Shown: piece after piece, positions 11,923 to 30,151 of the stretch
How the letters are laid out: each line of letters begins with the position of its first letter
Position numbering within the stretch: position 1 is the stretch's first letter
Source of the DNA: Epilithonimonas zeae
Lineage (GTDB): Bacteria; Bacteroidota; Bacteroidia; Flavobacteriales; Weeksellaceae
DNA: 64,000 nt
Assembly: GCF_023278365.1 (NCBI RefSeq)
Contig: NZ_CP075338.1
Location: 682,001-746,000 of the forward strand
Reading direction: 5' to 3'
Notes under the pieces: model-generated
Seen by the model: the letters and a program-made list of their open reading frames with translations, nothing else
What the model was told of the DNA's origin: nothing
The model's database searches: none
Made by a program: the position numbers and the translations under genes

Positions 11923-11967
11923 TATGATTCAAATCATAAACTACTTATATGCTTCTCTCTAACTTTG
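11923..11967 (+). promoter_or_regulatory. Operator 1 (TATGATTCAAATCATA) plus -7 element TAACTTTG
   Basis: Palindrome 11923-11938; 21 bp later TAACTTTG at 11960-11967; ATG at 11989. The operator centre falls about 41 bp before the expected transcription start, the class II activator position, and no TTTG is present at the -33 position. Geometry TGA-N6-TCA is that of Crp/Fnr sites. Heads the lipoprotein-crp-NADH dehydrogenase run and faces ku on the other side. Confidence 0.75.
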
Positions 11968-11988
11968 GTCTTACCAAAATAAAATTTT

Positions 11989-12225
11989 ATGAAAAAGTTA
12001 ATCTTTGTCTCGGTAATCGGACTTGTGTTCAGTTGCAAAGACAACAAATCTCAAGAGAACTATAGGTCAGATTCTCTTTCCGTAGCTAATGACCAAAATG
12101 ATTCTTTGGTCACCTCTTCTTCAATAGATAACACTGCGACTCCAGACAGCAGCAATCTCAATTCCAGCACAACAACTCCAATTGACAGTCTTTCCACAAG
12201 AAAAGATTCTGTGAGAAGACGTTAG
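11989..12225 (+). CDS. Small Ser/Thr/Asp-rich lipoprotein
   Basis: 78 residues. Signal peptide with lipobox VFSC (Cys at residue 16) after MKKLIFVSVIGL, so a lipidated envelope protein. The mature part is low-complexity Ser/Asp/Asn/Thr and ends in a basic tail KDSVRRR. Its closest visible relative is the product at 14663-14893, with the same lipobox, composition and tail (RDSVRVR); both are the first gene after the same operator. Function unknown. Confidence 0.75.
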   Translation: MKKLIFVSVIGLVFSCKDNKSQENYRSDSLSVANDQNDSLVTSSSIDNTATPDSSNLNSSTTTPIDSLSTRKDSVRRR

Positions 12226-12308
12226 TTGAAAATAAGATTTTTTTCAATCCGATAGATCATAGCCTTATTAATAATATTTAATGAGGTTATTTTTACGTGT
12301 TTGTATAT

Positions 12309-12323
12309 AATTGATTATCAATT
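12309..12323. promoter_or_regulatory. AATTGATTATCAATT palindrome upstream of the first Crp-type gene
   Basis: Perfect 15-bp palindrome around one central base, 105 bp before the ATG at 12429. Its core TTGATTATCAA repeats the site at 11892-11902. Could be an autoregulatory site; evidence is only the repetition. Confidence 0.3.
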
Positions 12324-12428
12324 TATTGGAATGGTTTTTGTTTTTCTTTCAAAAATGAACTACAACCTTTATTATCATATTTTTCGTGTTTTTAAGAAGA
12401 TGTAAACTTTTAAGTAAAATCATTAATT

Positions 12429-13028
12429 ATGGTCATAGAAGAGTTAATTTTAGAATCGCTGGGAGCTGACACAGAACATCACGCTGCAGGCAATACGATT
12501 TTTTCGGAAGGCAGTACGCCAAATTATTATTTTCAAATCGTAGAGGGCGAAGTTAAACTTAACAATTATAGTGAGGATGGTAAAGAAACGATTCAAGATA
12601 TTTTAGGAAAAGGACAAAGCTTTGGAGAATCTATGTTGTTCACAGATAATTCGTATCCTGTGAATGCCATAGCCTTGTCATCTTGTAAAATTCTGAAATT
12701 ACCTAAACAAAAATTTTTAGAATTGTTGGAGAAACATCCTGAGAATTATTTGGATACAATAAAAAGTATTTCAAACTCTATGTATTTCAGGTATGTGATG
12801 GGACAATATCTCAGTTCTCAAAATCCTGTTTCTAAACTCCGAACTTTTATGGATTATCTGAAGGGTATGCAGACAGATTGTAGAGAACCTTACTCCTTCC
12901 AGATTCCATTGACAAGACAACAAATGGCGAGTTTTACTGGATTGTGTGTAGAAACTACTATCCGAACTTTGAAGGTGATGGAAAAAAATAAAATTGTGAA
13001 AATCAAAAATCATAAGGTTCTTTATTAA
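12429..13028 (+). CDS. Crp/Fnr-family transcriptional regulator 1
   Basis: 199 residues: cNMP-binding-type beta barrel (IFSEGSTPNYYFQIVEGEVK ... GKGQSFGESMLF) at ~20-110, long dimerisation helix, and C-terminal winged HTH at ~150-199 (LTRQQMASFTGLCVETTIRT). No Cys cluster for an Fe-S centre of the Fnr kind, and no complete cAMP pocket of the E. coli Crp kind (the RS/T pair is absent), so the ligand, if any, is unknown. The recognition helix carries V-E-T-T-I-R like the two paralogues but has Cys where they have Arg (GLCVET versus GLRVET). Sits between the operator-1 lipoprotein and the NADH dehydrogenase on the same strand. Confidence 0.92.
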   Translation: MVIEELILESLGADTEHHAAGNTIFSEGSTPNYYFQIVEGEVKLNNYSEDGKETIQDILGKGQSFGESMLFTDNSYPVNAIALSSCKILKLPKQKFLELLEKHPENYLDTIKSISNSMYFRYVMGQYLSSQNPVSKLRTFMDYLKGMQTDCREPYSFQIPLTRQQMASFTGLCVETTIRTLKVMEKNKIVKIKNHKVLY

Positions 13029-13115
13029 GTTTAAAATGGATTTTAGTTTTATCAATAGTCCATAATGAATCTTGTATAAGGCCAATTATTGTGAAATCAA
13101 ACGATAATATTTAAT

Positions 13116-14387
13116 ATGAAAAATCGTCAGACAGTTGTAATTATAGGTGGTGGATTTGCTGGAGTTGAGTTAGCTGAGCGACTTCTAAAGGCTGATATCG
13201 ATGTACACGTCGTATTAGTTGATAAAAATAATTATAATTTTTTTCCACCTTTATTATACCAAGTTGCCACAGGATTTTTGGATGTTTCTAATATCAGTTA
13301 TCCGTTCAGAAAGCATTTCAGGTCAGCTGACAGATTTTCTTTCATTATGGGAAGTCTGGAAGGAATTATTCCTGAAGAAAACAAAATTATCTTGAATAGT
13401 GGAGAAATATCCTACACGAAACTGATTCTCGCAACCGGAACTGTCACGAACTATTTCGGAATTGAAAGCATTCAAAAAAATGCACTTCCAATGAAAACCG
13501 TTACGGATGCTATTAATCTTAAAAATACATTACTGGAAAGGCTGGAAAAAGCTTCTAAAACGGATGACGAAAATCTAAGAAAAAAACTGACGACTTTCGT
13601 TATAGCCGGAGGCGGTCCAACGGGTGTAGAAGTGGCAGGAATGCTGAGTGAGCTGAGAAAAAATATTTTGTTTAAGGATTATCCTGAACTAAAAAAAATA
13701 GCATTTGACATTTATTTAGTCGATGGTTTGCCTAATATTTTGGCGCCGATGAGCAAAGAATCGCAGCAATATGCACAGAAAACTTTAGAAAAAAGTGGTG
13801 TAATTATTAAGCTGGGACAAAATGTAAAAAATTATGTTGATGGCGTTGTTCATCTTGCAGACGGAACTTTTATAGCCAGTGAAAATCTGATTTGGACTGC
13901 TGGCGTAACTGCTCAAAAATTTAAAGGTTTGCCAGATGAGTTTTATGGCAAAGGGAACAGACTGATGGTCAATTCTTTTAATGAACTGATTGGAATAAAA
14001 AATATCTACGCTATTGGTGATACGTCTCTGATGACTTCTGACCCTCATTTTCCACAAGGTCATCCACAGCTGGCTCAGGTGGCTCTGCAACAAGGCAGAT
14101 TATTGGCAAAAAATATTATAAACGAAAACCGAGGAAAAGACAAAAAATCATTCACCTATAATGATAAAGGTTCAATGGCAATTATCAAAAGGAATAGGGC
14201 AGTTGCAGACCTTCCCGCTCCATTCAAACATTTTAATGGATTCTTCGCCTGGCTGATTTGGATATTTGTTCACTTGATGTCGCTCATTAATGTCAGAAAC
14301 AAAATTACAACTTTCTTCAACTGGCTGAATTCCTACATCACCAAAGACCAGCCATTGCGAATGATAATTGACCCATCCAAAAAGTAA
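13116..14387 (+). CDS. Type II NADH dehydrogenase-like FAD oxidoreductase
   Basis: 423 residues. FAD-binding VVIIGGGFAGVELAERL at ~8-24, second Rossmann motif FVIAGGGPTGVEVAGMLSEL at ~162-181 for NAD(P)H, then YAIGDTSLM near 308 (FAD contact) and a hydrophobic/amphipathic C-terminal stretch (FFAWLIWIFVHLMSLINVRN) that anchors NDH-2 enzymes to the membrane. NDH-2 passes electrons from NADH to menaquinone without proton pumping. 87 bp after the Crp-type gene, same strand. In the stress island it may serve low-energy or oxidative conditions, which is inference. Confidence 0.87.
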   Translation: MKNRQTVVIIGGGFAGVELAERLLKADIDVHVVLVDKNNYNFFPPLLYQVATGFLDVSNISYPFRKHFRSADRFSFIMGSLEGIIPEENKIILNSGEISYTKLILATGTVTNYFGIESIQKNALPMKTVTDAINLKNTLLERLEKASKTDDENLRKKLTTFVIAGGGPTGVEVAGMLSELRKNILFKDYPELKKIAFDIYLVDGLPNILAPMSKESQQYAQKTLEKSGVIIKLGQNVKNYVDGVVHLADGTFIASENLIWTAGVTAQKFKGLPDEFYGKGNRLMVNSFNELIGIKNIYAIGDTSLMTSDPHFPQGHPQLAQVALQQGRLLAKNIINENRGKDKKSFTYNDKGSMAIIKRNRAVADLPAPFKHFNGFFAWLIWIFVHLMSLINVRNKITTFFNWLNSYITKDQPLRMIIDPSKK

Positions 14388-14405
14388 TTCAAATAACCAT
14401 TAATT

Positions 14406-14579
14406 ATGTTCATAAAAGTCTATACATCCGTCAACAATTTTATTTTGGTTAATGTCAACCATATTGTTTATATCAACCCGAGTAATGCTAATCGCGGATG
14501 CGCGCTCATTCTTGATACAGGTGTCCGGCTGGATTCTATAGAAGATTATGATGTTTTATTACAGCAAATGATGTATTAA
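14406..14579 (+). CDS. 57-residue small protein with beta-rich pattern
   Basis: ATG at 14406 to TAA at 14577, 57 codons, only 18 bp after the NADH dehydrogenase stop. The sequence MFIKVYTSVNNFILVNVNHI, then VYINPSN and GCALILDTG, has the strand pattern of the small FlbD-like fold (value, hydrophobic strand, Asn-rich turn, acidic helix DSIEDYDVLLQQM). Codon use and composition look like neighbouring genes. No known function here. Confidence 0.6.
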   Translation: MFIKVYTSVNNFILVNVNHIVYINPSNANRGCALILDTGVRLDSIEDYDVLLQQMMY

Positions 14580-14587
14580 ATAAAATC

Positions 14588-14632
14588 TATGACTCAAATC
14601 ATAAACCAGCCATAATCTTCTGGCTAACTTTG
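14588..14632 (+). promoter_or_regulatory. Operator 2 (TATGACTCAAATCATA) plus -7 element TAACTTTG
   Basis: Palindrome 14588-14603, 21 bp gap, TAACTTTG at 14625-14632, ATG at 14663. Same arrangement as operator 1. Heads the second small lipoprotein and possibly the catalase and alcohol dehydrogenase beyond it. Confidence 0.75.
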
Positions 14633-14662
14633 AAAATACCAAATACCAAAAAATAAATTATT

Positions 14663-14893
14663 ATGAAAAAATTATTTTTAATCTTCGCTACGGGATTACT
14701 GTTTAGTTGTAACAGCAATAAATCTTCTGAAAACTCAGAATCTGTATCAATCGACAGTACATCTATGGATACTCAAACTTCTTCATCTATGAACAGCGAC
14801 ACTACAACAGTTTCATCTGGAGCTACCGGAACAACATCTTCTCCAACAGATAGTACTTCTACATCCAATCGGGATTCAGTGAGAGTACGCTAA
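14663..14893 (+). CDS. Small Ser/Thr-rich lipoprotein
   Basis: 76 residues. Signal peptide MKKLFLIFATGLLFSC with lipobox Cys at residue 16, then a Ser/Thr/Asp low-complexity chain and basic end RDSVRVR. Paralogue of the protein at 11989-12225. The flexible, uncharged mature part suggests a surface or periplasmic spacer, but no function is known. First gene after operator 2. Confidence 0.75.
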   Translation: MKKLFLIFATGLLFSCNSNKSSENSESVSIDSTSMDTQTSSSMNSDTTTVSSGATGTTSSPTDSTSTSNRDSVRVR

Positions 14894-14970
14894 GCCGAAT
14901 TAATTACATTAACTCTACATATTTCTAAAGTGAAGTATGTTGACTTGTTTTAATAATTTTTTTCCTAATT

Positions 14971-15007
14971 ATTGATATCAGGAATCAATCCTGATATCAA
15001 TTCTTTC
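14971..15007 (+). terminator. Hairpin between lipoprotein and catalase genes
   Basis: Perfect 13-bp stem, arms ATTGATATCAGGA and TCCTGATATCAAT, loop ATCAA, followed by a mixed TTCTTTCT tail. Probably an attenuating terminator; the catalase may then be partly transcribed from operator 2 by read-through. Confidence 0.55.
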
Positions 15008-15072
15008 TATCAATCTCATTCAATGATTTTTGTGAGAAAGGAAAAGTATACCCATTTACCAAAATTTGCAAT

Positions 15073-17217
15073 ATGAAAAACGATAAAAATTTTAAAAATA
15101 TAAAACTGAACCAGCTTCAAAATCACACAACGGATAATACAGATGAAAAACTCACGACCAACCAAGGTCTGAAAATCAACAACAATCAGGACTCTCTCAA
15201 AGCGGGAGAGCGAGGTCCGAGTTTATTGGAAGATTTCATTCTGAGAGAAAAAATTACACATTTTGACCACGAAAGGATTCCGGAAAGAATTGTCCACGCC
15301 AGAGGTTCCGGCGCACACGGTGTTTTCAAACTGAATCAAAGTCTGGAAAAATATACAAAAGCCAAATTCCTGACAGAAGTTGGAAAAGAAACACCGGTTT
15401 TTGTAAGATTTTCTACCGTTGCAGGATTCAGAGGAAGTACAGACTTGGCCAGAGATGTGAGAGGATTTGCGGTTAAATTTTATACTGAGGAAGGTAATTA
15501 TGACTTGGTTGCGAACAATATGCCCGTGTTTTTTATTCAGGATGCAATTAAATTTCCAGATTTGGTACACGCTGTGAAACCGGAACCGGATACAGAAATT
15601 CCACAAGCTTCTTCGGCGCACGATACTTTTTGGGATTTTATTTCATTGATGCCGGAAAGCATGCATATGATTATGTGGCTGATGAGCGATAGGGCAATTC
15701 CTAGAAGTTACCGAATGATGGAAGGTTTTGGCGTTCATTCTTTTAAGTTTATAAATAGTGAAGGCGATTCTCATTTTGTGAAGTTTCATTTCAAGCCGAA
15801 GTTGGGTATCCATTCTGTTGCTTGGGATGAGGCGACAAAGATTTCGGGTAAAGATCCGGATTTTCATAGGAGAGACCTTTGGGAAGCGATAGAAAGCGGG
15901 GCTTTTCCGGAGTGGGATTTTGGCGTACAATTGATTCCGGAAGAGAATGAGCATGATTTCGATTTTGACCTTCTCGATCCGACTAAGATTGTTCCTGAAG
16001 AATTGGTTCCTGTTCAACTAATAGGAACTTTAACCCTTAATAAAAACCCGGACAATTTCTTTGCTGAAACAGAGCAAGTGGCTTTCCATCCGGGACATTT
16101 AGTTCCTGGAATCGATTTCAGTAATGATCCACTATTACAAGGCCGATTATTTTCCTATACTGATACTCAGTTATCGCGATTGGGTTCACCAAATTTCCAC
16201 GAGATTCCAATCAACAGATCAATCAATACAGTTCATAATAACCAGCGAGATGGACATATGCGTCAGCAAATTGTTAAAGGTAAAGTTAGCTACGAACCGA
16301 ATTCTATCGGTGGCGGATGTCCTTTCCAGGCAATGATGAAAGACGGCGGATTCACATCGCAGGCAGAACGTGTGGACGGAAACAAAGTCCGTGCGAGAAG
16401 CCAAAGTTTTGTAGATCATTATTCTCAAGCCAAATTATTTTACAACAGTCAATCTGAGCCGGAAAAAGTTCACCTTCAAAATGCATTAATATTTGAATTG
16501 TCCAAAGTGACGATTCCAGCCATCAGAGAAAGATTAGTTGGTCAGTTGTTATTCATCAACAAAGATTTAGCTTCAACTGTTGCTAAAAAAGTAGGTGTTG
16601 ATGTAATTAAACTGAAACAACCGAACGCCAGTATTCCCGCAGATGCCGATCCAAAAACTTTACAGAGCAAGGAAAGAGAGCCAAACTTTCCAAGTTCCGA
16701 AGCTTTGAGTATGGCTAATACGGTAAAAGATACCATTAAAAGCAGAGTTGTAGGTTTTATTATGGAAAATGGTGTCAATGGAAAAGAAGTAAGTCAATTA
16801 CAATCCAAATTAGAGAAAGAAGGTGCGATGGTTCAGATAATTTCTGGTAGTCTTGCACACATAAAAGCGGATGATGGAACGGTTTACGAACCAAAGCATA
16901 CTTTGACCAATACAGCCAGTGTTTGCTTCGATGCTTTATATCTCTGTGGTGGAAAAGAATCAGCTAAAAATCTACTGAATCCGGAAAACAAGGCAGGAAC
17001 ATTACTTTTTGTGAATGAAGCTTACAAACATTGTAAGGCAATTTATTTTGGTTCTGATACAGACCAGATTTATATCGAAAGTAATATCAGTCTGAAACAG
17101 CACGAAGACTCTGCTATTGTACACGCTACGGAAAAAGATAGCGATAATCTCTTCATAAAAGCTGTTGCCAATCACAGGGTTTGGGAGTTTGAACAGCAAA
17201 GAAATAATCCTGCTTAA
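15073..17217 (+). CDS. katE: Large-subunit catalase (HPII/KatE type)
   Basis: 714 residues, the size of clade II monofunctional catalases. Heme catalase core: [14 protein letters not shown] with the catalytic His at residue 75, [25 protein letters not shown] with the conserved Asn, and the proximal heme ligand in [14 protein letters not shown] (Tyr 362). The C-terminal ~150 residues form the flavodoxin/class I glutamine amidotransferase-like domain found only in large-subunit catalases ([20 protein letters not shown] onwards). Decomposes hydrogen peroxide in the cytoplasm. 31 bp before the alcohol dehydrogenase gene, so probably co-transcribed with it. Confidence 0.95.
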
Positions 17218-17248
17218 AGTAAAATCAAATCACCAAAATATTAAAGTT

Positions 17249-18415
17249 ATGAAAGCAGCAGTTTTCCATATGCCGGGTAAGATTACCTGCGACACGGTAG
17301 ATGATCCCATTATCGAGGATCCCAATGATATTATTCTTAAAGTGACTTCCACGGCCATTTGTGGCAGCGATCTCCATATGTATTCCGGAGGAATGCCTCA
17401 GCTAAAACCAATGGTTATGGGCCACGAGTTTATGGGAATAGTGGAAGAAGTCGGAGCTAATATTTCTCATCTTCAAAGAGGAGATAGAGTCGTTGTTCCA
17501 TTCCCGATAGCCTGTGGTGGCTGTTATTTTTGCCAGCACGATCTTCCTTCGGCTTGTGAAAACAGCAATCAGGATCATTACGGACCAGAAGGTGGAATAT
17601 TAACAGAAAAAGGCGGTGGAATGTTCGGTTACACAGATTTGTATGGCGGTTACAGTGGCGGACAGGCACAATATGTTCGTGTTCCCTATGCCAATTTTGG
17701 ACCTCGAAAAGTTCCTGATGTTTTAACCGATGAACAAGTTCTTTTCCTGACCGATATTTTTCCCACAGGCTATACCGGTGTAATGTGGGGTGAACTGAAA
17801 GGCGGCGAGTCGGTTGCAATTTTCGGCGCCGGACCCGTCGGATCTATGGCGGTAAAAAGTGCTATTCTTCACAATGCAGGAAAAGTAATTGTAATTGATA
17901 CTTTGCAATACAGACTGGACCAAATCAAAAAATTGACGGGCTGTGAAACGATTCTTTGGGAGGACGCAGAACAAACTGTGGAACAGATCCGGGATTTGAC
18001 AGAAGGCAGAGGTGCAGATCTTTGTATCGATGCGGTCGGGTTTGAACCGGAAAGAAATTTATTGGATAAAGCTAAGGCCGTTCTCAATTTCGAAAAAGGC
18101 TCTATCAAAGTTTTAGAAGCCTGTATGAGCGGTGTTCGTCGTGGTGGAATTGTTTCTATTCTGGGCGTTTATCCAGTGAATTATGATAATTTTAAAGTCG
18201 GACAGATTTTTGACAAAGGAATTACTCTGAAAGCTGGTCAATCACCGGTTCACGCTATCGTTGACAAGCTTCTGAAATATGTAGAAACCGGACAGGTGAA
18301 ACTAGACGATATCATCACGCACAGACTTTCTCTAGACGACGTTGCAAAAGGTTATGAAATTTTCCATAAGAAAGAAGACAATTGCGTTAAAGTTGTGTTG
18401 GATCCTTGGAAATAA
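17249..18415 (+). CDS. Zinc-dependent alcohol/formaldehyde dehydrogenase-like protein
   Basis: 388 residues from the ATG at 17249; the frame extends upstream into katE, but MKAAVFHMPGK is the standard family start. MDR-fold enzyme: catalytic zinc ligands Cys38 (ICGSDLH), His59/Glu60 (MGHEFMG), structural zinc Cys89, Cys92, Cys95, Cys103, and NAD-binding VAIFGAGPVGSMA near residue 190. The long insertion and the pattern GGYSGGQAQYVRVPYAN are typical of the glutathione-independent formaldehyde dehydrogenase branch. The natural substrate cannot be read. Gene pairs of katE and such dehydrogenases recur in stress clusters of other bacteria. Confidence 0.87.
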   Translation: MKAAVFHMPGKITCDTVDDPIIEDPNDIILKVTSTAICGSDLHMYSGGMPQLKPMVMGHEFMGIVEEVGANISHLQRGDRVVVPFPIACGGCYFCQHDLPSACENSNQDHYGPEGGILTEKGGGMFGYTDLYGGYSGGQAQYVRVPYANFGPRKVPDVLTDEQVLFLTDIFPTGYTGVMWGELKGGESVAIFGAGPVGSMAVKSAILHNAGKVIVIDTLQYRLDQIKKLTGCETILWEDAEQTVEQIRDLTEGRGADLCIDAVGFEPERNLLDKAKAVLNFEKGSIKVLEACMSGVRRGGIVSILGVYPVNYDNFKVGQIFDKGITLKAGQSPVHAIVDKLLKYVETGQVKLDDIITHRLSLDDVAKGYEIFHKKEDNCVKVVLDPWK

Positions 18416-18440
18416 ATTTAATTATTAGATATCCAACGAG

Positions 18441-18476
18441 AACAGGAGACCTCAAAAAGTCTCCTGTTTTTTTATT
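18441..18476 (+). terminator. Terminator after the alcohol dehydrogenase gene
   Basis: Perfect 10-bp stem AACAGGAGAC / GTCTCCTGTT, loop CTCAAAAA, followed by a long T-run. Lies between convergent genes. Confidence 0.85.
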
Positions 18477-18490
18477 TGCAATCAAGTCTT

Positions 18491-18946: not shown

Positions 18947-19345
18947 TTTAATATTGATTTAGTATAAAGTGAAACTTACAAGAATAATGCCTTTGATTTA
19001 ACATAATATTTTTAATGAAAAATAGATTTTAAATTATTTAATAGAATGTTAAAATGCAATTTATTATGTTAAATGTTTGATTAACAATTGCAATCTAAAT
19101 AGTATTAATTTAATTTTTAATTATCTGATTTGCATACAGTTATTGTTGGTTTGTAAATAATTTTGAAAACTTAATTAATACAAAATTTATAAATGGATTG
19201 ATTAGTATGACTCAAATCATATGCTTACCGATGTCATTGTGTTTAGCTTTGGATTACCACTTTTCACAAACAAAGTTGCTGTTCTAAATACTAGTCACAG
19301 ACCAGCAATTTTATCACTAAATATTAATATAAAAAATTCAAAGTT
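18947..19345. other. Intergenic region with operator 3
   Basis: About 400 bp without a gene. The first 250 bp is very AT-rich (long runs of A and T) with nothing I can name. Operator 3 and its -7 element occupy 19206-19251, followed by a 94-bp leader before the KGG gene, the longest leader among the six operators. Near the minus-strand gene start is a TAAGTTTC-like element that could serve the DUF2383 gene. Confidence 0.5.
19206..19251 (+). promoter_or_regulatory. Operator 3 (TATGACTCAAATCATA) plus -7 element TAGCTTTG
   Basis: Palindrome 19206-19221, 22 bp gap, TAGCTTTG at 19244-19251. Heads the KGG, DUF892 and cyanophycinase-like genes. Confidence 0.75.
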
Positions 19346-20401: not shown

Positions 20402-20430
20402 TTTTTAATCCTTCAGTTCATTATATGTTT

Positions 20431-20460
20431 GATTACCTCTCTTGGGAGGTAATCATTTTT
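20431..20460 (+). terminator. Terminator after the KGG gene
   Basis: Stem GATTACCTC / GAGGTAATC, 6-base loop, followed by ATTTTT. The DUF892 gene starts 24 bp later, so this may lower and not stop its transcription. Confidence 0.75.
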
Positions 20461-22006: not shown

Positions 22007-22453
22007 GTTTATAAAATTTTAAAACAAAACCATTTATTATTATCAAATTTCATTGTTTTTATGGCTTATTGTTAATTTGATATTGTGACATTTATTTATT
22101 TTAATAATTTCATTATGACTCAAGTCATAAAATTCTTTAGAAGTTCTGTATAATTTTGAACTCAACAAAAATAGACTATGAAATTATTATCCTTAATTTT
22201 TACAATGCGATTGATTCTTTGAATAAAATTACATTGATGATGCTTAGTTATTTCATTAACAGGCAAATAATACCAATATTTTAAAAGATTTTTATTAAGA
22301 CTAAAAAGTTTTAGTTGCATAAGAATTTGTGAGAGTTTTGGGAAATTAAAATTAAGTAAGATAATAAACGACAAATAGATTATTTCAATTAATTAATTGA
22401 TTTAAAGTGATTTAAAGGTTGTTGGGATTCTTTAGATTACAAGAGAGTAAAAT
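22007..22453. other. Intergenic region with operator 4 and a degenerate leader
   Basis: 447 bp. The operator and promoter are at 22114-22158. A 14-codon frame begins 19 bp later (ATG at 22178; MKLLSLIFTMRLIL, then stop), in the position where other units have a small lipoprotein gene. The remaining ~230 bp to the Crp-type gene is AT-rich with no gene I can support. Confidence 0.5.
22114..22158 (+). promoter_or_regulatory. Operator 4 (TATGACTCAAGTCATA) plus -7 element TAATTTTG
   Basis: Palindrome 22114-22129, the most symmetrical of the six, 21 bp gap, TAATTTTG at 22151-22158. Next complete gene is the second Crp-type regulator at 22454, so this site may give autoregulation or cross-regulation. 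Confidence 0.75.
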
Positions 22454-23050
22454 ATGGTTATAGAAGAAACTATTATAAAATCATTAGGGGCAAAAGTCGA
22501 GGAATACAATATCGGTGATGTTATTTTTTCAGAAGGTGGAACACCATTGTATTATTATCAGATCATTGAGGGTGATGTAAAGCTTAATAATTACAATGAG
22601 GACGGAAAGGAAATGATACAAAGTATTTTGACAACAGGTCAAAGTATTGGTGAGTTTTTGCTTTTTGTGGATAAAACTTACCCTGTTAATGCTATTGCTA
22701 TTTCGCCTTGCAGAGTTCTGAAATTATCCAAATCCAAGTTTCTTCTTGTGTTAGAAAATTACCCTGAAGTTCATTTTGATATCATCCAAAGTCTGTCGGA
22801 CACAATGTACTTCAAATTCGTGATGGGACAGATTTTTTCCACTCAGAACACATCAACAAAATTAAAAGCCTTGATGGATTATTTAAAGAGTTTCCAGAAA
22901 GATCAGACACCATTTTCTTTTCAGGTTCCATTGACCAGGCAACAGATGGCAAGTCTCACAGGTTTGCGTGTGGAGACGACAATCAGGACTTTAAAACAGA
23001 TGGAAAAGGATAATATAGTAAAAATAAAAAATCGTAAGATTTTATATTGA
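22454..23050 (+). CDS. Crp/Fnr-family transcriptional regulator 2
   Basis: 198 residues, clearly paralogous to regulator 1 over the whole length (IFSEGGTPLYYYQIIEGDVK, then the C-terminal LTRQQMASLTGLRVETTIRT). Effector domain at ~15-110, winged HTH at ~150-198. Recognition helix has R-V-E-T-T-I-R; in Fnr the equivalent Glu and the final Arg read the G and A of the half site, in line with the TGA/TCA halves of the local operators. No Fe-S cysteines. Convergent with regulator 3, 7 bp between stops. Confidence 0.92.
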   Translation: MVIEETIIKSLGAKVEEYNIGDVIFSEGGTPLYYYQIIEGDVKLNNYNEDGKEMIQSILTTGQSIGEFLLFVDKTYPVNAIAISPCRVLKLSKSKFLLVLENYPEVHFDIIQSLSDTMYFKFVMGQIFSTQNTSTKLKALMDYLKSFQKDQTPFSFQVPLTRQQMASLTGLRVETTIRTLKQMEKDNIVKIKNRKILY

Positions 23051-23057
23051 TTTTAGA

Positions 23058-23654
23058 TCAATAATAAATTTTCCCTTGAACAATCTTCACTACATTTTGC
23101 TTTTCCAAAACCTTGATTGTTCGTATCGCCGTTTCTACCCTCAAACCGGTTAAAGAAGCTAATTGCTGTCTTGTTAAAGGTATTTCAAAAGAAAACCGGT
23201 CTGTATCGGAAGAAAAACTTTTATGATAATCAAATACTCCTAACAATCTCACATCAGGATGCAATGAGGAGTTATTCTCGAGCATTATGAATTTCTGATA
23301 AAGCCTTTCTGACAAAAATTTATTGAGATCTCGTGATACATCGGGGTTTTCATCCAGCATTTTAACAAAGTTTGATTTCGAAAGTTTGATAACTTCACTC
23401 GGTTCAAAAACTATAGCGTTCACAGGATAAGTTTTATCTATGAAGAGTAGTAATTCGCAAACGCTGAGACCGTGATGTAAAATAGCCAAAATCAGTTCTT
23501 TTCCTTCTTCATTGTAGTGATTCAGTTTTATTCTTCCGGAAATAATTTGATAATAGTATTTCGGTTTTTCATCTTCTCGGAAAATGATATCTCCGGCTTC
23601 ATAATATTCGATTTTTGCACCATAGGATAGTAGCAGATCTTCAGCAATTATCAT
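23058..23654 (-). CDS. Crp/Fnr-family transcriptional regulator 3
   Basis: 198 residues, more diverged than regulators 1 and 2 but with the same layout: GDIIFREDEKPKYYYQIISG, then LTRQQLASLTGLRVETAIRT in the HTH. The barrel motif GQSxGE of the paralogues is changed to GLSVCE, and a charged SSLHPDVRL loop replaces the corresponding linker, so it may sense something else or nothing. Convergent with regulator 2 and divergent from the six-gene run that starts after operator 5. A minus-strand -7 element lies at 23692-23699. Confidence 0.9.
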   Translation of the reverse strand: MIIAEDLLLSYGAKIEYYEAGDIIFREDEKPKYYYQIISGRIKLNHYNEEGKELILAILHHGLSVCELLLFIDKTYPVNAIVFEPSEVIKLSKSNFVKMLDENPDVSRDLNKFLSERLYQKFIMLENNSSLHPDVRLLGVFDYHKSFSSDTDRFSFEIPLTRQQLASLTGLRVETAIRTIKVLEKQNVVKIVQGKIYY

Positions 23655-23691
23655 AATGTTAATTTTATATTGTTACAATAATTTCTGTATA

Positions 23692-23699
23692 CAAACTTA
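23692..23699 (-). promoter_or_regulatory. -7 element TAAGTTTG of Crp-type gene 3
   Basis: Reverse strand TAAGTTTG, 38 bp upstream of the ATG at 23654. Operator 5 lies 57 bp further upstream, too far for the spacing seen at the six plus-strand promoters. Confidence 0.5.
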
Positions 23700-23755
23700 A
23701 AACCAATTTTTAGAATTGATAATTTTATAGAGTTTAATAGAGTTTTTAAAGGCTT

Positions 23756-23801
23756 TATGATTCAAATCATATAATGACAGAAGTCAGTTTGCGTAATTTT
23801 G
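23756..23801 (+). promoter_or_regulatory. Operator 5 (TATGATTCAAATCATA) plus -7 element TAATTTTG
   Basis: Palindrome 23756-23771, 22 bp gap, TAATTTTG at 23794-23801, ATG at 23832. Heads a run of six same-strand genes with short gaps up to 29228. Confidence 0.75.
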
Positions 23802-23831
23802 GTTTAATCCAAATCGAAAAAGTAGCAAAAA

Positions 23832-24131
23832 ATGAATATTGAAAAACTATTAAAATCATTGCCTGGTTATGACTTTAAAAAATTGATCAATAAAAGTCAA
23901 AGGTTTGAACCGGGATCTACCATTTATGCAAAAGAAATAGAAAATGAGATTTTCCTTCTTTTCGTGGTTTTGAAAGATAAAAATCCAAAAGACATCCATT
24001 CTTTTATCGCTTATTTTGACAGCTTTGAACATATCGGAGTCCAGGAACCTAAAGAAATAATGTTTTATCAATTGATATCCAAAATTCAGGATTTTCATTA
24101 TTTCGAGAAATATCTAAATGTTTATCATTAA
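23832..24131 (+). CDS. Small hypothetical protein, first gene after operator 5
   Basis: 99 residues, no signal peptide, mixed charge, no motif I recognise. Begins MNIEKLLKSLPGYDFKKLIN and has a central hydrophobic strand IFLLFVVLKDKNPKDIHSF. As the leader gene of the operator-5 run it takes the place of the lipoproteins in other units but is not one. Function unknown. Confidence 0.6.
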   Translation: MNIEKLLKSLPGYDFKKLINKSQRFEPGSTIYAKEIENEIFLLFVVLKDKNPKDIHSFIAYFDSFEHIGVQEPKEIMFYQLISKIQDFHYFEKYLNVYH

Positions 24132-24209
24132 TAATCAACTGGAAAAGTGAAATTGTTGGACCGAAGTTATAAGGTTCTTTTATCCAATAACATTTAAAAA
24201 AATTAACTT

Positions 24210-24716
24210 ATGGAATTTCCTAAAATACTATTGGACAAGATCAGCTATAATCTGAGAGAAAAAAATGAGTCCATTTCCATTGCAGAAAGCGTAACATCGG
24301 GATTTGTACAGATGGCGTTTTCTCAAATGCCATGTGCAGAACAATTTTTCAAAGGCGGAATTACAGCCTACACAATCGAGGAAAAAGTCAAACATCTAAA
24401 CATTGATTTTGATGAAGCCAAGGCCACAAACTGCGTGTCCAGAAACATCAGCGAAATGATGGCTCTTAATGTTGCTTCGTTATTCGATTCGGATTGGTCG
24501 ATTGCTACAACCGGTTATGCTACGCCGGTAAAAGAATCGGATAATCAGATATTTGCTTATTACTGCATCGCTTATCGGGGAACAATTATTAGAAGTGATA
24601 AAATAGAACTTCATCCGTTGACTAAGGCGTTTGATGCACAAAAATACTTTATGGAGTACATTTTAGGATGTCTCCGTTGCGAGGTCAAAAGAGACCATTC
24701 TAAAGTTACAATTTAA
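24210..24716 (+). CDS. CinA C-terminal-family protein (NMN amidase-like)
   Basis: 168 residues corresponding to the CinA C-terminal domain alone: SIAESVTSGFVQMAFSQMPC near residues 22-41, then FFKGGITAYTIEEKVKHL and SIATTGYATPV. The family includes nicotinamide mononucleotide deamidases that recycle NAD. The usual SxGG in the first loop of PncC (ESCTGG) reads ESVTSG here, so activity is uncertain. Gap of 78 bp from the preceding gene, 45 bp to the next, same strand. Confidence 0.82.
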   Translation: MEFPKILLDKISYNLREKNESISIAESVTSGFVQMAFSQMPCAEQFFKGGITAYTIEEKVKHLNIDFDEAKATNCVSRNISEMMALNVASLFDSDWSIATTGYATPVKESDNQIFAYYCIAYRGTIIRSDKIELHPLTKAFDAQKYFMEYILGCLRCEVKRDHSKVTI

Positions 24717-24761
24717 GTTTATCCACTATAAAAATGATGTAAAACCATTAAATAAAATTAT

Positions 24762-25523
24762 ATGGCTGGGGAAGATTTTTTACAATTGAAAAACAAATCA
24801 GTTTTAATTTCGGGAGCGGACAGCGGTATCGGAAAGGCGGTTGCATTGCTTTTTGCAAAAGAAGGTGCTGATATTGCGATTATCTATCACAGCGATGATA
24901 AAGATGCTGAAGAGACCAAAGAGGAGATCGAGCAATTAGGCAGAAAGGTTTTATTGTTTTCAGGAGATGTTAATAATTCTCAATTCTGTAAGGTTTGTGT
25001 CAATAAAACTATTTCCGAATTTGGAAAACTGGATATTCTGATTAATAATGCAGGCGTTCAGTTTCCCGCGGATAATATTTTGGATCTTGAGGAAGAAAAT
25101 ATCAGAACAACTTTCAATGCTAACATTATCGGAATGATATTACTGACGAAAGCGGCATTTCCTCATCTTAAACAAGGTGATTGTATCATCAATACAACTT
25201 CTGCGACAGCTTATCAGGGACATAAACAATTGTTGGATTATTCTGCCACCAAAGGAGCGATTGTTTCTTTCACAAGATCGTTGGCTTTACAGTCCAGAAA
25301 AAAAGGAATTCGTGTGAATGCTGTTGCGCCAGGTCCGGTTGCAACACCTCTCACCAAAGAAACTTTTGATGAGGAAGAAGAAGACCCGAACAAACCACCA
25401 TTCGAAAGAAATGCAACGCCCGAGGAAGTTGCCGGAAGTTTCCTATTCTTGGCAACAGATGCTTCGGCTCAGATTACGGGGCAGGTTTTGCATCCAAACG
25501 GCGGATTAATTGTAAATGGTTAA
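24762..25523 (+). CDS. Short-chain dehydrogenase/reductase (YghA/glucose-dehydrogenase-like)
   Basis: 253 residues of a classical SDR: VLISGADSGIGKAVALLFA at 14-32 (TGxxxGxG equivalent), NNAG at 96-99, catalytic Ser147, Tyr160 and Lys164 (YSATK), and the C-terminal PEEVAGSFLFLATDASAQIT. The acidic DEEEEDPNKPPFERNATPEE insertion is typical of stress-island SDRs of the YghA/GsiB-associated type. NAD(P)-dependent; substrate unknown. 17 bp before the amylase gene. Confidence 0.87.
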   Translation: MAGEDFLQLKNKSVLISGADSGIGKAVALLFAKEGADIAIIYHSDDKDAEETKEEIEQLGRKVLLFSGDVNNSQFCKVCVNKTISEFGKLDILINNAGVQFPADNILDLEEENIRTTFNANIIGMILLTKAAFPHLKQGDCIINTTSATAYQGHKQLLDYSATKGAIVSFTRSLALQSRKKGIRVNAVAPGPVATPLTKETFDEEEEDPNKPPFERNATPEEVAGSFLFLATDASAQITGQVLHPNGGLIVNG

Positions 25524-25540
25524 CTAATTGATTTTTAAAT

Positions 25541-27013
25541 ATGAATGGGACTATTTTACAGTTTTTCCATTGGTATCATCCGGGGAAACTATGGAATGAA
25601 TTTATTGATAGGGCGGAGTACTTAAAAAGTTTAGGTTTTACTGCAGTTTGGTTTCCGCCGGCAATCAAATGTGCTCTGGGTACGGAAGGTCGAGGTTATG
25701 ATGTTTATGATTTGTATGATTTGGGAGAATTTGACCAGAAAGGAACTGTTTCTACAAGATACGGAACTAAGGAAGAATATCTGAAAGCGATTGAAAAAGC
25801 TCACGAGTTTGGGATGAAAGTTTATGCCGATATTGTTCTTAACCACAGAATGGGAGCGGATGAAAAGCAAACCATAACTGTCCATCAAGTCAATGACGAG
25901 AATAGAAATGAAATTGTAAAAGAAGCTTTCGAAGCTGAAGCAATGACAAAGTTTACATTCCCGGGGAGAAATGGAAAATATTCTGATTTTGTTTGGGATT
26001 CTCGATGTTTTAGTGGCATCGATAAAGTTAAAACCGGCGACGAAGAATTGGAAGGCATTTTCAAAATCTATAATGAATATGGTACGGATTGGAATGACAG
26101 TGTGAGCCATCAATTCGGAAACTATGATTATTTGATGGGTGCTGATGTCGAATTCCGAAATCCTTATGTTGTAGAAGAACTGAAACGTTGGATTAAATGG
26201 TATATTGAAACAACCAAAGTAGACGGTTTGAGAATGGATGCTTTGAAACACATCTCAACCGAATTTCTGAAAGAATGGATAGATTACATCAAATCCGATA
26301 TTGATGAAAACTTCTTTATGGTTGGCGAGTTCTGGAAAGATAATGTTGAAAAAATCAAAGATTTTTCCGAAAAGATGGATCATCGGATTTGTTCGTTTGA
26401 TGTGCCTTTGCATTATAATTTCTTCCAAGCTTCACAGGAAAAGCAGAGTTATAACCTGAGCGAAATTTTAAAGGGAACTTTTCTGGATTGCAATCCGGAG
26501 TGCTCAGTTTCATTCGTCGGGAACCACGACACACAACAGCTTCAGGCTTTGGAATCCACAGTGGAAAACTGGTTCAGACCAATCGCTTATGCGATTATTT
26601 TGTTGTCAGAAAATGCTTATCCGTGCGTGTTTTATCCGGATTTGTTCGGGGTAGAATATGTTGATAAAAATGAACAGGGCGAAGATGAAAAGATTGTAAT
26701 GCCAAAAGTCGAGATTCTTCCACGTTTGATGCAGGCTCGTTTGGAACTGGCTTACGGAGAGCAGATTAATTATTTTGACCATCCCAATTGTATCGCCTGG
26801 ATAAGAAAAGGAGATGACAATCACGAAGCTTGTGTGGTTATCATTTCTAATAGCAAGGAAGGCTACAAAGAAATGGATTTAGGAAAAGAAAATGCTTTCG
26901 CAAAGTTTACAGACTTTCTGGGATTCCGAAAAGAAATAGTTGAGCTGGATTATAATGGAAAAGGAACTTTTTGGGTTAATCCGGAATCAGTAAGTGTTTG
27001 GCAAAAAAAATAA
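25541..27013 (+). CDS. Cytoplasmic alpha-amylase, GH13
   Basis: 490 residues without a signal peptide, so intracellular. GH13 barrel with FTAVWFPPA, ADIVLNHRMGADEK (region I), GLRMDALKHIS with the nucleophile Asp233 (region II), MVGEFWKDN with the acid/base Glu263 (region III) and FVGNHDTQ with Asp330 (region IV). The length and the insertion between regions I and II fit the cytoplasmic AmyA/BSU subfamily. Would split internal glycogen or maltodextrins, giving carbon in starvation. 17 bp after the SDR and 24 bp before the FAD/Rieske gene. Confidence 0.92.
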   Translation: MNGTILQFFHWYHPGKLWNEFIDRAEYLKSLGFTAVWFPPAIKCALGTEGRGYDVYDLYDLGEFDQKGTVSTRYGTKEEYLKAIEKAHEFGMKVYADIVLNHRMGADEKQTITVHQVNDENRNEIVKEAFEAEAMTKFTFPGRNGKYSDFVWDSRCFSGIDKVKTGDEELEGIFKIYNEYGTDWNDSVSHQFGNYDYLMGADVEFRNPYVVEELKRWIKWYIETTKVDGLRMDALKHISTEFLKEWIDYIKSDIDENFFMVGEFWKDNVEKIKDFSEKMDHRICSFDVPLHYNFFQASQEKQSYNLSEILKGTFLDCNPECSVSFVGNHDTQQLQALESTVENWFRPIAYAIILLSENAYPCVFYPDLFGVEYVDKNEQGEDEKIVMPKVEILPRLMQARLELAYGEQINYFDHPNCIAWIRKGDDNHEACVVIISNSKEGYKEMDLGKENAFAKFTDFLGFRKEIVELDYNGKGTFWVNPESVSVWQKK

Positions 27014-27037
27014 AAATTAATAATCAAAATTAAAGTT

Positions 27038-28555
27038 ATGAACAGAGACGGCGTTAGAAAAAGTATTTGGCAGGAAGAGATCAAGTCTTTTCCTGCAACC
27101 ATCAATTTCGAAGGCGAATATGATATTGCCATTGTTGGTGGCGGAATTACAGGCGTTTCTACGGCTTACGAACTTCAAAAATCCGGTAAGAAATGTATCC
27201 TGATCGAGGCTTCGAATATCGGATTTGGAACAACTGGCGGAACAACGGCTCATATCAATAATTTTCTGGACACGACTTATTCTCAGGCTATCAGCAAATA
27301 CGGTTTGGAAGATGCTAAACTTCTCTTCGAATCGGTGAATGATGCTATTGGAATTATTGAAAAAAACATCAATGACAATAATATAGATTGTGATTTTGAG
27401 AAGAAAACGGCGCAACTTTTTGCGTTGGATGAGAAACAAGTAAAACAATTGGATGATATTTTAAAAGGTGCTGAAAAAGTTGGTTGCGAAATGAATTTGA
27501 TTAATGATATTTCGTTCCCGATTCCTTTTATGAAAGCTGTAGGAATTCCTGGTCAGGCTCAGTTTCATCCAATCAAATATATCAGCGCACTTTGTCAAAG
27601 CTTTTTGAATTCCGGTGGAATAATTGTCGAAAATTGTTTCTGCCAAAGTCATTCGGAGGAAAAGGATTGGATTGTAATCGATACTTCAAAAGGAATTGTC
27701 AAAGCTAAAAATTTGGTTTATGCAACCCATATTCCGCCTGGAATCAATATGCTGCATTTTACCAATGCGCCTTACCGAAGTTATGCAATGGCTTTCACTC
27801 TTAAGAGTCAAAACTATCCTCAGGAATTGGGTTATGACTTGATGGATCCGTATCATTATTACAGAATTCAGGAAATCAATGAAGAAACTTTATTGATTGC
27901 CGGCGGAGAAGACCACAAAACCGGACATTCCGACGATACAGGTCTTTGCTTTACCAATTTGGAAAATTATGTCCGTCAATATTTTGATGTTGATTTGGTG
28001 AGATACAGTTGGTCCAGTCAATATTACGAACCTGTGGACGGTTTGCCATATATTGGGAAAATGCCCGAAACTTCCAAGATTTACTCCGCAACAGGTTTCC
28101 GTGGAAATGGGATGATATTCGGAACATTGTCTTCGAGAATTATTTCGGATTTAATTCTGGAAGGAAAAACCAAATATCGAAATTTATTCAGTCCTTCTCG
28201 TATTATGCCGATTGCCGGTTTTTCAGAATTTGTAAAAGAAACAGCAACCGTTGCCACAGATTTTATCAAAGACAAATTGTTTGTTGAGAAAGTTTCGTCT
28301 TTGGTAGAAATCCATGAAGGTGAAGGAAAAGTCGTAAAATATGAAGGTGAATCTTACGCAGTTTACAAGGAAAAGGGTGGAGATGTTCATCTTTTAAAAA
28401 GTACTTGTCCGCACGCCAAATGTGAAGTTCGGTGGAATAGTGCGGAGATTTCTTGGGATTGTCCTTGCCACGGTTCTCGTTTCGATGTCAACGGAAAAGT
28501 TCTCACAGCGCCTTCTGTGACCAATCTTACAAGGGTTAGAGAGAAGGATTTATAA
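27038..28555 (+). CDS. FAD-dependent oxidoreductase with C-terminal Rieske domain
   Basis: 505 residues. DAO-type FAD domain: DIAIVGGGITGVSTAYELQK near residues 29-48, then GFGTTGGTTAHINN; C-terminal ~100 residues hold a Rieske [2Fe-2S] domain with CPH and CPCHGSRFDVNG supplying the two Cys and two His ligands. Such fusions (YhfW type) occur in stress clusters next to SDRs and are thought to be cytoplasmic; the substrate is unknown. The combination suggests electron transfer from FAD to the cluster. 7 bp before the next gene. Confidence 0.88.
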   Translation: MNRDGVRKSIWQEEIKSFPATINFEGEYDIAIVGGGITGVSTAYELQKSGKKCILIEASNIGFGTTGGTTAHINNFLDTTYSQAISKYGLEDAKLLFESVNDAIGIIEKNINDNNIDCDFEKKTAQLFALDEKQVKQLDDILKGAEKVGCEMNLINDISFPIPFMKAVGIPGQAQFHPIKYISALCQSFLNSGGIIVENCFCQSHSEEKDWIVIDTSKGIVKAKNLVYATHIPPGINMLHFTNAPYRSYAMAFTLKSQNYPQELGYDLMDPYHYYRIQEINEETLLIAGGEDHKTGHSDDTGLCFTNLENYVRQYFDVDLVRYSWSSQYYEPVDGLPYIGKMPETSKIYSATGFRGNGMIFGTLSSRIISDLILEGKTKYRNLFSPSRIMPIAGFSEFVKETATVATDFIKDKLFVEKVSSLVEIHEGEGKVVKYEGESYAVYKEKGGDVHLLKSTCPHAKCEVRWNSAEISWDCPCHGSRFDVNGKVLTAPSVTNLTRVREKDL

Positions 28556-28562
28556 TTAAAAT

Positions 28563-29228
28563 TTGAAAGTGATGTCTAAGAATAATTTCTTTTACCGTAA
28601 CAGCTTGAGCATTGTTTTGATTGCGTTAATGCTGATTTTCTGGGTTGGTCAATTTTTTACAGGTTGGAAAACTGAAAATAAGGAACTGGCGGAAGAAGGT
28701 CAAGCTTTATTGAATTTTGGTCAATACATCCAGAGCGGACATTTTATTCAGGCGACTTTTGAGAATTGGGAAAGCGAATTTTTGCAGATGATGCTTTATA
28801 TTTTGCTTACAGTTTCACTCAGGCAAAAAGGTTCCAGTGAATCTAAGTCTCTGACCGAAAAAGAAGATGTTGATGAAGAGCCGAAACCACATTCCAATGC
28901 GCCTTGGCCAGTGAAAAAAGGTGGCATTTGGCTGAAGATTTACAAGCATTCTCTGTCTTTGGTTTTCGGGGTTTTGTTTCTAATCAGTTTTGTGCTTCAC
29001 TTTTTTGGTAGTTACAAAGATTATAATTCAGAACAGATGATAAAAAATAAAACAACAATTGGTGTCTATGATTATCTATTCGAGTCCAGATTTTGGTTTG
29101 AATCTTTTCAGAATTGGCAAAGCGAGTTTCTGGCAGTAGCATCTATTGTTCTCCTTTCTATCTGGTTAAGAGAAAAAGGTTCACCCGAATCCAAACCTGT
29201 CGATATGGCTCACGACGAAACGCCTTAG
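28563..29228 (+). CDS. Four-helix membrane protein, DUF6766-like
   Basis: 221 residues. GTG and ATG codons close to the start; the frame beginning MKVMSKNNFFYRN is used. Four hydrophobic segments in two pairs: SLSIVLIALMLIFWVGQFFT, then FLQMMLYILLTVSL; and SLVFGVLFLISFVLHFFGSY, then EFLAVASIVLLSIWL. Each half also contains FxNWxSEF and an LRxKGSxESK segment, so the protein is an internal duplication. I associate this pattern with DUF6766. Function unknown. Last gene of the operator-5 run. Confidence 0.72.
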   Translation: MKVMSKNNFFYRNSLSIVLIALMLIFWVGQFFTGWKTENKELAEEGQALLNFGQYIQSGHFIQATFENWESEFLQMMLYILLTVSLRQKGSSESKSLTEKEDVDEEPKPHSNAPWPVKKGGIWLKIYKHSLSLVFGVLFLISFVLHFFGSYKDYNSEQMIKNKTTIGVYDYLFESRFWFESFQNWQSEFLAVASIVLLSIWLREKGSPESKPVDMAHDETP

Positions 29229-29416
29229 TGTGTTTTATTGAGCAAATTTTCCTCGGTTTTCTTTAGAAGTTGTTTTAAAATGACTTCCAATATGTCATGT
29301 ATAATAATTAGTAGTTTAATTTATTTATAATTTATATATAAATAAATATTGTTAATTTATTTTGGTATAATGATTGTAATAATTGATTTATTCACATTAA
29401 TTAATATTAAAAAATT

Positions 29417-29992
29417 ATGGCAACTACAAAATCGGCACCAGCAACAAAAACAAAGACTGCTGCAAAAAGTACAACCGCAACAAAAAAAACACCTGCTAAA
29501 AAAGATGCTGCTAAGGATTTGAGCGATCTTTTCGAAGACAGTTTAAAAGACATCTATTGGGCAGAAAAAGCATTGGTAAAAGCTTTACCGAAAATGATGA
29601 AAAATGCGACCAATGAAAAATTGAAAACTGCTATCGAAAAGCATTTGGCCGAGACAGAAACACATGTTACTCGCCTGGAAGAGATTTTCGAATCTATGGG
29701 TAAAAAAGCTCAGGCTAAAAAATGCGATGCAATGCAAGGTTTGCTGGATGAGGCAGACAGTATAGTTGAGGAAACAGAGCCAGGAACTGTGAGAGATGCA
29801 GGAATCATTGCGGCAGCACAGAAAGTGGAACATTATGAGATTGCTACTTACGGAACATTGGCGGCGTTTGCCAAGATTTTAAAAGAATCTACACCATTGA
29901 AGCATCTGCTTAAAACTTTGGAAGAAGAGAAAACCTGTGATGAGTCTTTGACACAGCTTACGGACGTTAATCTTAATTCTAAAGCAAAATAG
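29417..29992 (+). CDS. DUF892 ferritin-like protein with histone-H1-like N-terminal tail
   Basis: 191 residues. Residues 1-34 are almost only Ala, Lys, Thr and Pro (MATTKSAPATKTKTAAKSTT and on), a basic tail like that of bacterial histone H1-like proteins. The DUF892 bundle follows: LSDLFEDSLKDIYWAEKALV, HLAETETHVTRLEEIFESMG and AAQKVEHYEIATYGTLAAFA. Paralogue of the protein at 20484, which has no such basic tail. The tail could place a metal-binding bundle on DNA, as in Dps-type protection; this is inference. Confidence 0.88.
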   Translation: MATTKSAPATKTKTAAKSTTATKKTPAKKDAAKDLSDLFEDSLKDIYWAEKALVKALPKMMKNATNEKLKTAIEKHLAETETHVTRLEEIFESMGKKAQAKKCDAMQGLLDEADSIVEETEPGTVRDAGIIAAAQKVEHYEIATYGTLAAFAKILKESTPLKHLLKTLEEEKTCDESLTQLTDVNLNSKAK

Positions 29993-30070
29993 AAGTATAG
30001 GAATTTAGATTTTACAATAAAATGATACCAGTAGTTCATTTTGTACTCACGTAAAAAATAATTAAGAGTG

Positions 30071-30098
30071 GAGAGCAATCAATTGCTCTCTTCTTTTC
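30071..30098 (+). terminator. Terminator after the second DUF892 gene
   Basis: Stem GAGAGCAAT / ATTGCTCTC with a short loop, followed by TTCTTTTC. Directly before operator 6. Confidence 0.7.
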
Positions 30099-30106
30099 AT
30101 CTGATG

Positions 30107-30151
30107 TATGACTCAAATCATAATCCAAGACCTATGTAATTTATAGATTTG
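30107..30151 (+). promoter_or_regulatory. Operator 6 (TATGACTCAAATCATA) plus -7 element TAGATTTG
   Basis: Palindrome 30107-30122, 21 bp gap, TAGATTTG at 30144-30151. Heads a small lipoprotein gene and two hypothetical genes. Confidence 0.72.

Follow-up and report, generated by a model that had tools for sequence, protein, structure and literature searches.

The 64,000-nt stretch of the Epilithonimonas zeae genome considered here (contig NZ_CP075338.1, positions 682,001 to 746,000; the window, whose coordinates are used unless genome positions are named) contains a stress island in which a 16-bp palindrome, TATGAYTCAARTCATA, stands ahead of genes for a catalase, KGG and DUF892 proteins, and Crp/Fnr-type regulators. 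We consider it likely that these 16-mers serve as operators for Crp/Fnr activators of one Weeksellaceae subfamily, which includes the three regulators encoded in the island, and that they are placed for class II activation. The operator family is probably self-controlled and has the stress island as its main cluster in this genome; as a Crp/Fnr class II stress regulon, it is likely new. A first-pass annotation had proposed that a Crp/Fnr-type operator heads the stress transcription units, and this proposal is supported by a fixed spacing of 21 or 22 nt to the -7 promoter box, by the co-occurrence of operator and regulator across genomes, and by the recurrent adjacency of operators to regulator genes.

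In the mechanism we propose, a Crp/Fnr homodimer would recognise TATGAY-N4-RTCATA, the centre of which lies 41.5 or 42.5 bp ahead of the transcription start. There, the bound dimer would occupy the position of the absent -33 element and make contact with RNA polymerase holding the -7 box TANNTTTG. Genes for catalase, KGG, DUF892, CinA-like and NDH-2 proteins would be switched on together with the regulator genes themselves, and the outcome would be a positively autoregulated stress regulon.

Operator copies and promoter geometry

Each of the six copies that had been annotated, at 11923, 14588, 19206, 22114, 23756 and 30107, was recovered with no mismatch and on the forward strand, which is also the orientation of the next sizeable gene. 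The window holds six exact copies and the genome (one contig, 3.94 Mb) eight, with two more at one mismatch. All genomic copies fall into two clusters, the window island and a region at 508.6-519.7 kb, rather than in the random scatter that the first-pass annotation had held would speak against its idea. With up to three mismatches the window yields 17 matches (palindromes counted on both strands), a number reached by 0 of 100 shuffles of the window (mean 5.53). Exact TATGA-N6-TCATA palindromes in the window number six in total, all six with a YTCAAR centre, and none of the six operators lies within an open reading frame (ORF) of at least 120 amino acids (aa).

The Bacteroidota -7 box TANNTTTG follows all six operators, starting 21 nt (11923, 14588, 22114 and 30107) or 22 nt (19206 and 23756) beyond the last operator base, and was not found within 60 nt on the opposite side; its background in the window is 0.0006-0.0007 per base and strand. 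In experimental studies, this box lies at -12 to -5 in Flavobacterium johnsoniae, 4-5 nt ahead of the start (PMC6847099), and in the same place in F. psychrophilum (PMC9723704). Because these mapped positions fix the predicted start, the operator centres fall at -41.5 or -42.5 in six of six cases, as counted from predicted starts only. No TTTG was found around -33 at the six window promoters. Class II sites of Crp/Fnr activators are centred near -41.5, over the -35 region, and the six predicted promoters thus appear to fit class II placement.

The spacing is rigid well beyond the window. When only TGA-N6-TCA was specified, with spacings of 20-23 nt, the window yielded the six sites and one more (53187, 20 nt), and the same search on the reversed window gave no match. 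Across the window and 79 further loci, 94 of 94 operator-box pairs are spaced at 21 (56) or 22 (38) nt when 20-23 nt were permitted. Chosen blindly, without regard to the box, 15 of 29 exact 16-mers outside this genome (out of a total of 32, of which 29 had a locus) have the box at 21 or 22 nt; five of these 15 represent one homologous nosZ promoter of a single genus, g10 (genera are given here by our handles, g1 being that of E. zeae). In the promoter of regulator 2 (crp2), compared across six genomes, the operator and -7 region are conserved in a footprint-like manner; a conserved leader was considered and rejected, as the leader varies while these two stay.

A weaker palindrome, ATGAY-N4-RTCAT, lies 17 bp downstream of the operator centre at two window promoters (19224-19237 and 23774-23787). 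It occupies this fixed place at 9 of 73 promoters with 22-nt spacing, eight of the nine in g1 and several ahead of KGG or CinA-type genes; the loci are, besides the window, L173, L183, L188, L190, L194, L195 and L197. A tandem second operator was rejected as a general feature, given this frequency and the lack of enrichment in 119 promoters with 21-nt spacing. The second degenerate palindrome may be a repressor or autoregulatory site.

The unit of operator and box is widespread among relatives. As the TCAR-centred pair TATGANTCARNTCATA plus TANNTTTG, spaced at 20-23 nt, it occurs in 68 of 320 family genomes (reversed control 0), and freeing the six centre bases gives 873 units in 243 of the 320 (reversed control 3). 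At the loci examined, 3 of 193 distinct centre-free units lie within an ORF of at least 150 aa; intragenic placement, the other pattern named in advance as damaging, is therefore rare. A phylum sample carries the centre-free unit in 25 of 198 genomes (control none), comprising three from the family of E. zeae, 13 from a sister family of the same order (18 of which were sampled), and nine further genomes with a single match apiece. Of 296 genomes, four had the TCAR-centred form, and three of these four belong to the own family. The asymmetric centre was rejected as a universal rule: in 53 units of g20, at loci chosen centre-free to complement the TCAR loci, the forward TCAR centre occurs in none and the reversed one in three. 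The YTCARR centre is characteristic of g1 and of this genome (six of six), while the TATGA half site is used across Flavobacteriales, only the TCAA centre being special to this genome. The claim of a six-copy operator in the island stands. Its restriction to that island had to be given up, as the half site and promoter geometry are common to other Flavobacteriales and the operator, which occurs order-wide, is also found before nosZ.

At locus L176 of g10 (10079-12606), the operator unit is followed by genes for a cytochrome c-like protein and for a nitrous-oxide reductase of the Sec-dependent type, nosZ (TIGR04246); the same pair, judged by length and start, recurs in other loci of g10, g11 and g26 (L122, L177-L181). 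This position ahead of nosZ implies a specificity common to other functions. No nitrogen-oxide gene was found in the island units scanned. Among 132 first downstream proteins (the 193 units minus those internal to ORFs, those with no ORF within 600 nt, and duplicates), 28 are cNMP-binding, ten KGG, six CinA, five catalase, four cytochrome c, three response regulators and two DUF892. A small Ser/Thr/Asp-rich lipoprotein-like ORF was also observed directly behind the operator, sometimes just ahead of a regulator gene. Such an ORF lies within 200 nt in at least 32 of 191 units, which is an undercount, the rule having missed both clear cases in the window.

The second genomic cluster (locus L009, genome positions 503000-522999) is smaller, with PAS histidine kinases, four operator-like sites and apparent paralogs of island genes; its CinA-like, alpha-amylase and DUF2383 genes look like relatives of island genes when compared by eye. 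A full -7 box at 21 nt is present only at 512873, a site with one mismatch, and by eye 519702 shows TAATTTTA at the box position and 517957 shows none. This small cluster, about 170 kb from the island, would belong to the regulon.

Regulators and their association with the unit

All three island regulators (at 12429, 22454 and 23058) carry PF00027 and PF13545 above cut-off, which places them in the Crp/Fnr superfamily, and the regulator profile matches CRP in PDB (E 4.4e-20). The top Foldseek matches are likewise CRP, obtained with a medium-quality model (mean pLDDT 73, TM about 0.4) that served for fold class alone. The recognition helix VET(T/A)IR noted in the first-pass annotation is present in all three; the number of proteins sharing it needed correction, as the genome encodes five, two of them outside the island (genome positions 1221396 and 673837). 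The helix is missing from the five other HTH_Crp_2 matches of the genome. The nearest named relative found is Epilithonimonas arachidiradicis, with 86% identity to regulator 2. The regulators lie between the sites, as had been described, with the qualification that regulator 3 (23058-23654, minus strand) lacks an operator of matching orientation: site 23756 is 102 nt from its start, and the -7 box of that site faces the other way. Regulator 2, behind its own operator and box, is probably autoregulated.

In the profile alignment, VET(T/A)IR lies opposite RETVGR of CRP. Rodionov and colleagues link residue 181 with base A6 and residue 180 with base G3 (PMC1274295). The island helix has Glu at the A6-linked position and Val, not Arg, at the G3-linked position; on those rules, the retained Glu and the change from Arg to Val would match a half site in which TGA is kept and G3 has become A.

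Regulators 1-3 contain three, one and one cysteines, none before residue 66. FNR senses O2 with a four-cysteine Fe-S cluster, three of the cysteines being N-terminal, and the island regulators are therefore not FNR-type Fe-S sensors. They also depart from cAMP-dependent CRP: Pro-Val aligns opposite the Arg-Ser pair that holds the cAMP phosphate, and Val opposite R180. No PF00211 cyclase was found in the genome, other cyclase classes not having been sought. It is thus unlikely that the signal is cAMP or acts through an Fnr-type Fe-S cluster. HcpR2 proteins have Pro (or Ser/Gln) for E181 and in most cases a GTAAC half site; here, Glu occupies the 181-equivalent in nine of nine aligned proteins and the half site is TATGA. 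The BT4338/Cur operator, TATGTT-n-TA-n-AACATA, differs from the TATGA-N6-TCATA found in six of six copies.

Regulator presence, scored in the 320 family genomes by matches of E 1e-30 or better to a nine-regulator profile (239 positive), is strongly associated with the unit. Within g1, 17 of 17 regulator-positive and 0 of 6 negative genomes hold the unit (p 9.9e-6); the corresponding figures are 154 of 166 and 0 of 7 in g20 (p 6.2e-8), 4 of 4 and 0 of 10 in g21, and 221 of 239 and 22 of 81 in the whole family (p 8e-30). A strict rule that the unit occurs only where the regulator does is true in g1, g20 and g21 and was rejected family-wide, given the 22 exceptions. The number of sites rises with the number of regulators (Spearman 0.88 in g1, 0.62 in g20). 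Around 88 TCAR-type sites outside this genome, a regulator gene lies within 300 nt in 26 cases, within 1 kb in 38 and within 10 kb in 49.

Several observations weigh against a simple activator-operator pairing. Binding, activation, the identity of the acting paralog among five, and the operons are all inferred from sequence. The box at 21 or 22 nt is missing from 14 of the 29 blindly chosen 16-mers, and two of the eight exact copies in this genome (517957 and 519702) lack a full one there. The operator's position before nosZ means that it is not stress-specific, and regulator 3, as noted, has none in its own direction. Furthermore, for 39 of the 88 TCAR-type sites no regulator of this kind lies within 10 kb; the full unit is missing from 18 of the 239 regulator-positive genomes, 12 of them in g20; and of the 22 unit-bearing genomes with no regulator at the threshold, 11 belong to g26. 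The unit is present in 20 of 20 g26 genomes over the threshold and in 11 of 16 under it, and the few sites of g26 seem to belong to nosZ control. The threshold is arbitrary, the genome counts are not phylogenetically independent, and the association tests ignore phylogeny.

Alternative readings and known systems

The sites might be bound by the same Crp/Fnr subfamily, chiefly by one of the paralogs outside the island (1221396 or 673837), with the island regulators having other or overlapping targets. Both outside proteins keep the VET.IR helix, and the half site heads the nosZ operons of genera whose regulators are all distant ones, but we judge this unlikely: operators front or adjoin the island regulators and their relatives, and no operator with a -7 box was found within about 1.5 kb of either outside paralog. 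It is also rather improbable that the proteins bind and repress, holding the stress genes off until a signal arrives. While the operator overlaps the -33 region, and a second degenerate site lies between operator and box at two window promoters, the rigid 21- or 22-nt spacing suits contact with polymerase rather than occlusion, and there is no -33 TTTG.

Alternatively, another family, such as Fur/PerR or an extracytoplasmic function (ECF) sigma factor, could read the palindrome, the Crp genes being mere neighbours. Catalase and the ferritin-like DUF892 are typical oxidative-stress targets, and the unit does occur in genomes with no regulator at threshold. Yet TGA-N6-TCA is Crp/Fnr geometry, the -7 box belongs to the primary sigma factor, and none of the 23 genomes of g1, g20 and g21 that have no regulator holds a unit, which leaves this explanation very improbable. 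The near-identical centre of the six copies could reflect a duplicated promoter segment devoid of regulatory meaning. We give this hardly any credence, as the spacers between operator and box look unrelated among the copies and conservation of the crp2 promoter across species stops short of its leader.

An activating Crp/Fnr subfamily, which we prefer, can be compared with several described systems. At class II promoters of Escherichia coli, FNR and CRP bind a TGA-N6-TCA core centred at -41.5 over the -35 region. The island shares with them the protein family, core and centre; it differs in its half site (TATGA, versus TTGAT or TGTGA), in the Bacteroidota -7 box TANNTTTG, and in regulators lacking both the Fe-S cysteine set and the cAMP-type Arg-Ser pair. 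The nearest described system found is BT4338 (Cur/MalR/Crp) of Bacteroides thetaiotaomicron (PMC3878776, PMC6989115). This Bacteroidota regulator of the Crp family resembles ours in a palindrome that precedes a putative -7 box, in the autoregulation suggested for it and in a signal that is apparently not cAMP. Its operator, wwwTATGTTnTAnAACATAwww, and its carbohydrate genes differ from the TATGAY-N4-RTCATA, stress genes and several co-resident paralogs seen here. A bioreactor study assigned Flavobacteriales Crp/Fnr homologs to MalR (PMC8510549). HcpR, DNR and NnrR are likewise Crp/Fnr proteins without the FNR cysteines, follow the residue 180/181 base rules (PMC1274295) and recall the operator before nosZ in other genera; unlike the island, where no unit scanned has a nitrogen-oxide gene, their motifs in that paper are of the GTAAC, TTGAC or TGTGA type.

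DUF892 is the YciF family. The island resembles the RpoS regulon yciGFE-katN of enterobacteria in apparently placing KGG (YciG), DUF892 (YciF) and catalase under common control. In Salmonella, YciG and its KGG paralogs depend on sigma-S (PMC5437024). Control here differs in apparently relying on an activator that works with the primary sigma factor. RpoS was not found above the curated cut-off in the genome, and the one match (264 bits vs 378.7) is presumably the primary sigma factor. A literature search, several of whose terms were generic, found no published description of the operator.

The island and its wider meaning

From operator 1 onward, all island features lie on the forward strand apart from regulator 3; the operators are exact matches, their centres are predicted, the boxes come from a motif scan, and grouping into units is inferred from strand and spacing. 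Operator 1, TATGATTCAAATCATA (11923..11938; centre -41.5), and its box TAACTTTG (11960..11967) precede a 78-aa small Ser/Thr/Asp-rich lipoprotein-like ORF with no Pfam match (11989..12225), regulator 1 (199 aa, helix CVETTIR; 12429..13028) and an NDH-2-like pyridine nucleotide-disulphide oxidoreductase (13116..14387), which would form one unit. A second would begin behind operator 2, TATGACTCAAATCATA (14588..14603; centre -41.5), and box TAACTTTG (14625..14632), with another small lipoprotein-like ORF, read as 76 aa (14663..14893), a long catalase (PF00199; 15073..17217) and a zinc alcohol dehydrogenase-like protein (17252..18415).

Operator 3, TATGACTCAAATCATA (19206..19221; centre -42.5), is followed by the weaker possible second operator already described and by box TAGCTTTG (19244..19251). 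The predicted unit comprises a KGG-repeat (YciG-type) acidic protein (PF10685; 19346..20401), a DUF892 (YciF-type) protein (PF05974; 20484..21092) and a peptidase S51 family (cyanophycinase-like) protein (PF03575; 21170..22006). Operator 4, TATGACTCAAGTCATA (22114..22129; centre -41.5), kept in five related crp2 promoters, and box TAATTTTG (22151..22158), which the crp2 comparison also supports, would serve regulator 2 alone (198 aa, helix RVETTIR; 22454..23050). Regulator 3 (198 aa, helix RVETAIR) diverges from operator 5, TATGATTCAAATCATA (23756..23771; centre -42.5). Between the latter and its box TAATTTTG (23794..23801) lies the other possible degenerate operator (23774..23787). Behind the box, a 99-aa protein with no Pfam match (23832..24131) and a CinA-like protein (PF02464; 24210..24716) would make up unit 5, perhaps with the SDR oxidoreductase, alpha-amylase, FAD/Rieske oxidoreductase, DUF6766 and DUF892 genes (24762..29992).

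Operator 6, TATGACTCAAATCATA (30107..30122; centre -41.5), and box TAGATTTG (30144..30151) would head a last unit with a 218-aa protein (30323..30979; a shorter reading, 30368-30976, has no Pfam match) that by eye resembles proteins after the operator at L182 and L188 of the own genus. After this operator, at about 30156-30230, reading by eye suggests a small lipoprotein of the L182 kind that is disrupted or restarted near its beginning. On the minus strand at 8442-11821, genes for Ku (TIGR02772) and DNA ligase D (TIGR02776) diverge from the adjoining operator 1, with the phosphoesterase part of LigD encoded by an ORF of its own (TIGR02777). The island may therefore be shared with end-joining repair.

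To our knowledge, the way in which Bacteroidota, without RpoS, coordinate their general stress response is poorly known. The activator family described here may do the job given elsewhere to a stress sigma factor. We tentatively extend this to a broader conjecture, which could well prove wrong, that RpoS-less Weeksellaceae run their general stress response on a Crp/Fnr family of up to ten close paralogs per genome, which would read one class II operator and activate their own genes. Small Ser/Thr/Asp-rich lipoproteins would be co-regulated, the paralogs may compete or heterodimerise, and the YTCAAR centre would represent a tuned sub-regulon of the genus. The findings point to one DNA specificity common to an expanding paralog family and supply a rule that can be computed (operator, 21 or 22 nt, TANNTTTG) to locate, throughout Flavobacteriales, promoters that Crp/Fnr proteins are likely to activate. 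With a defined operator, a fixed geometry, few candidate regulators and a target list, the system is testable in culturable Chryseobacterium or Epilithonimonas and has a fair claim as a testable stand-in for an RpoS-type stress response.

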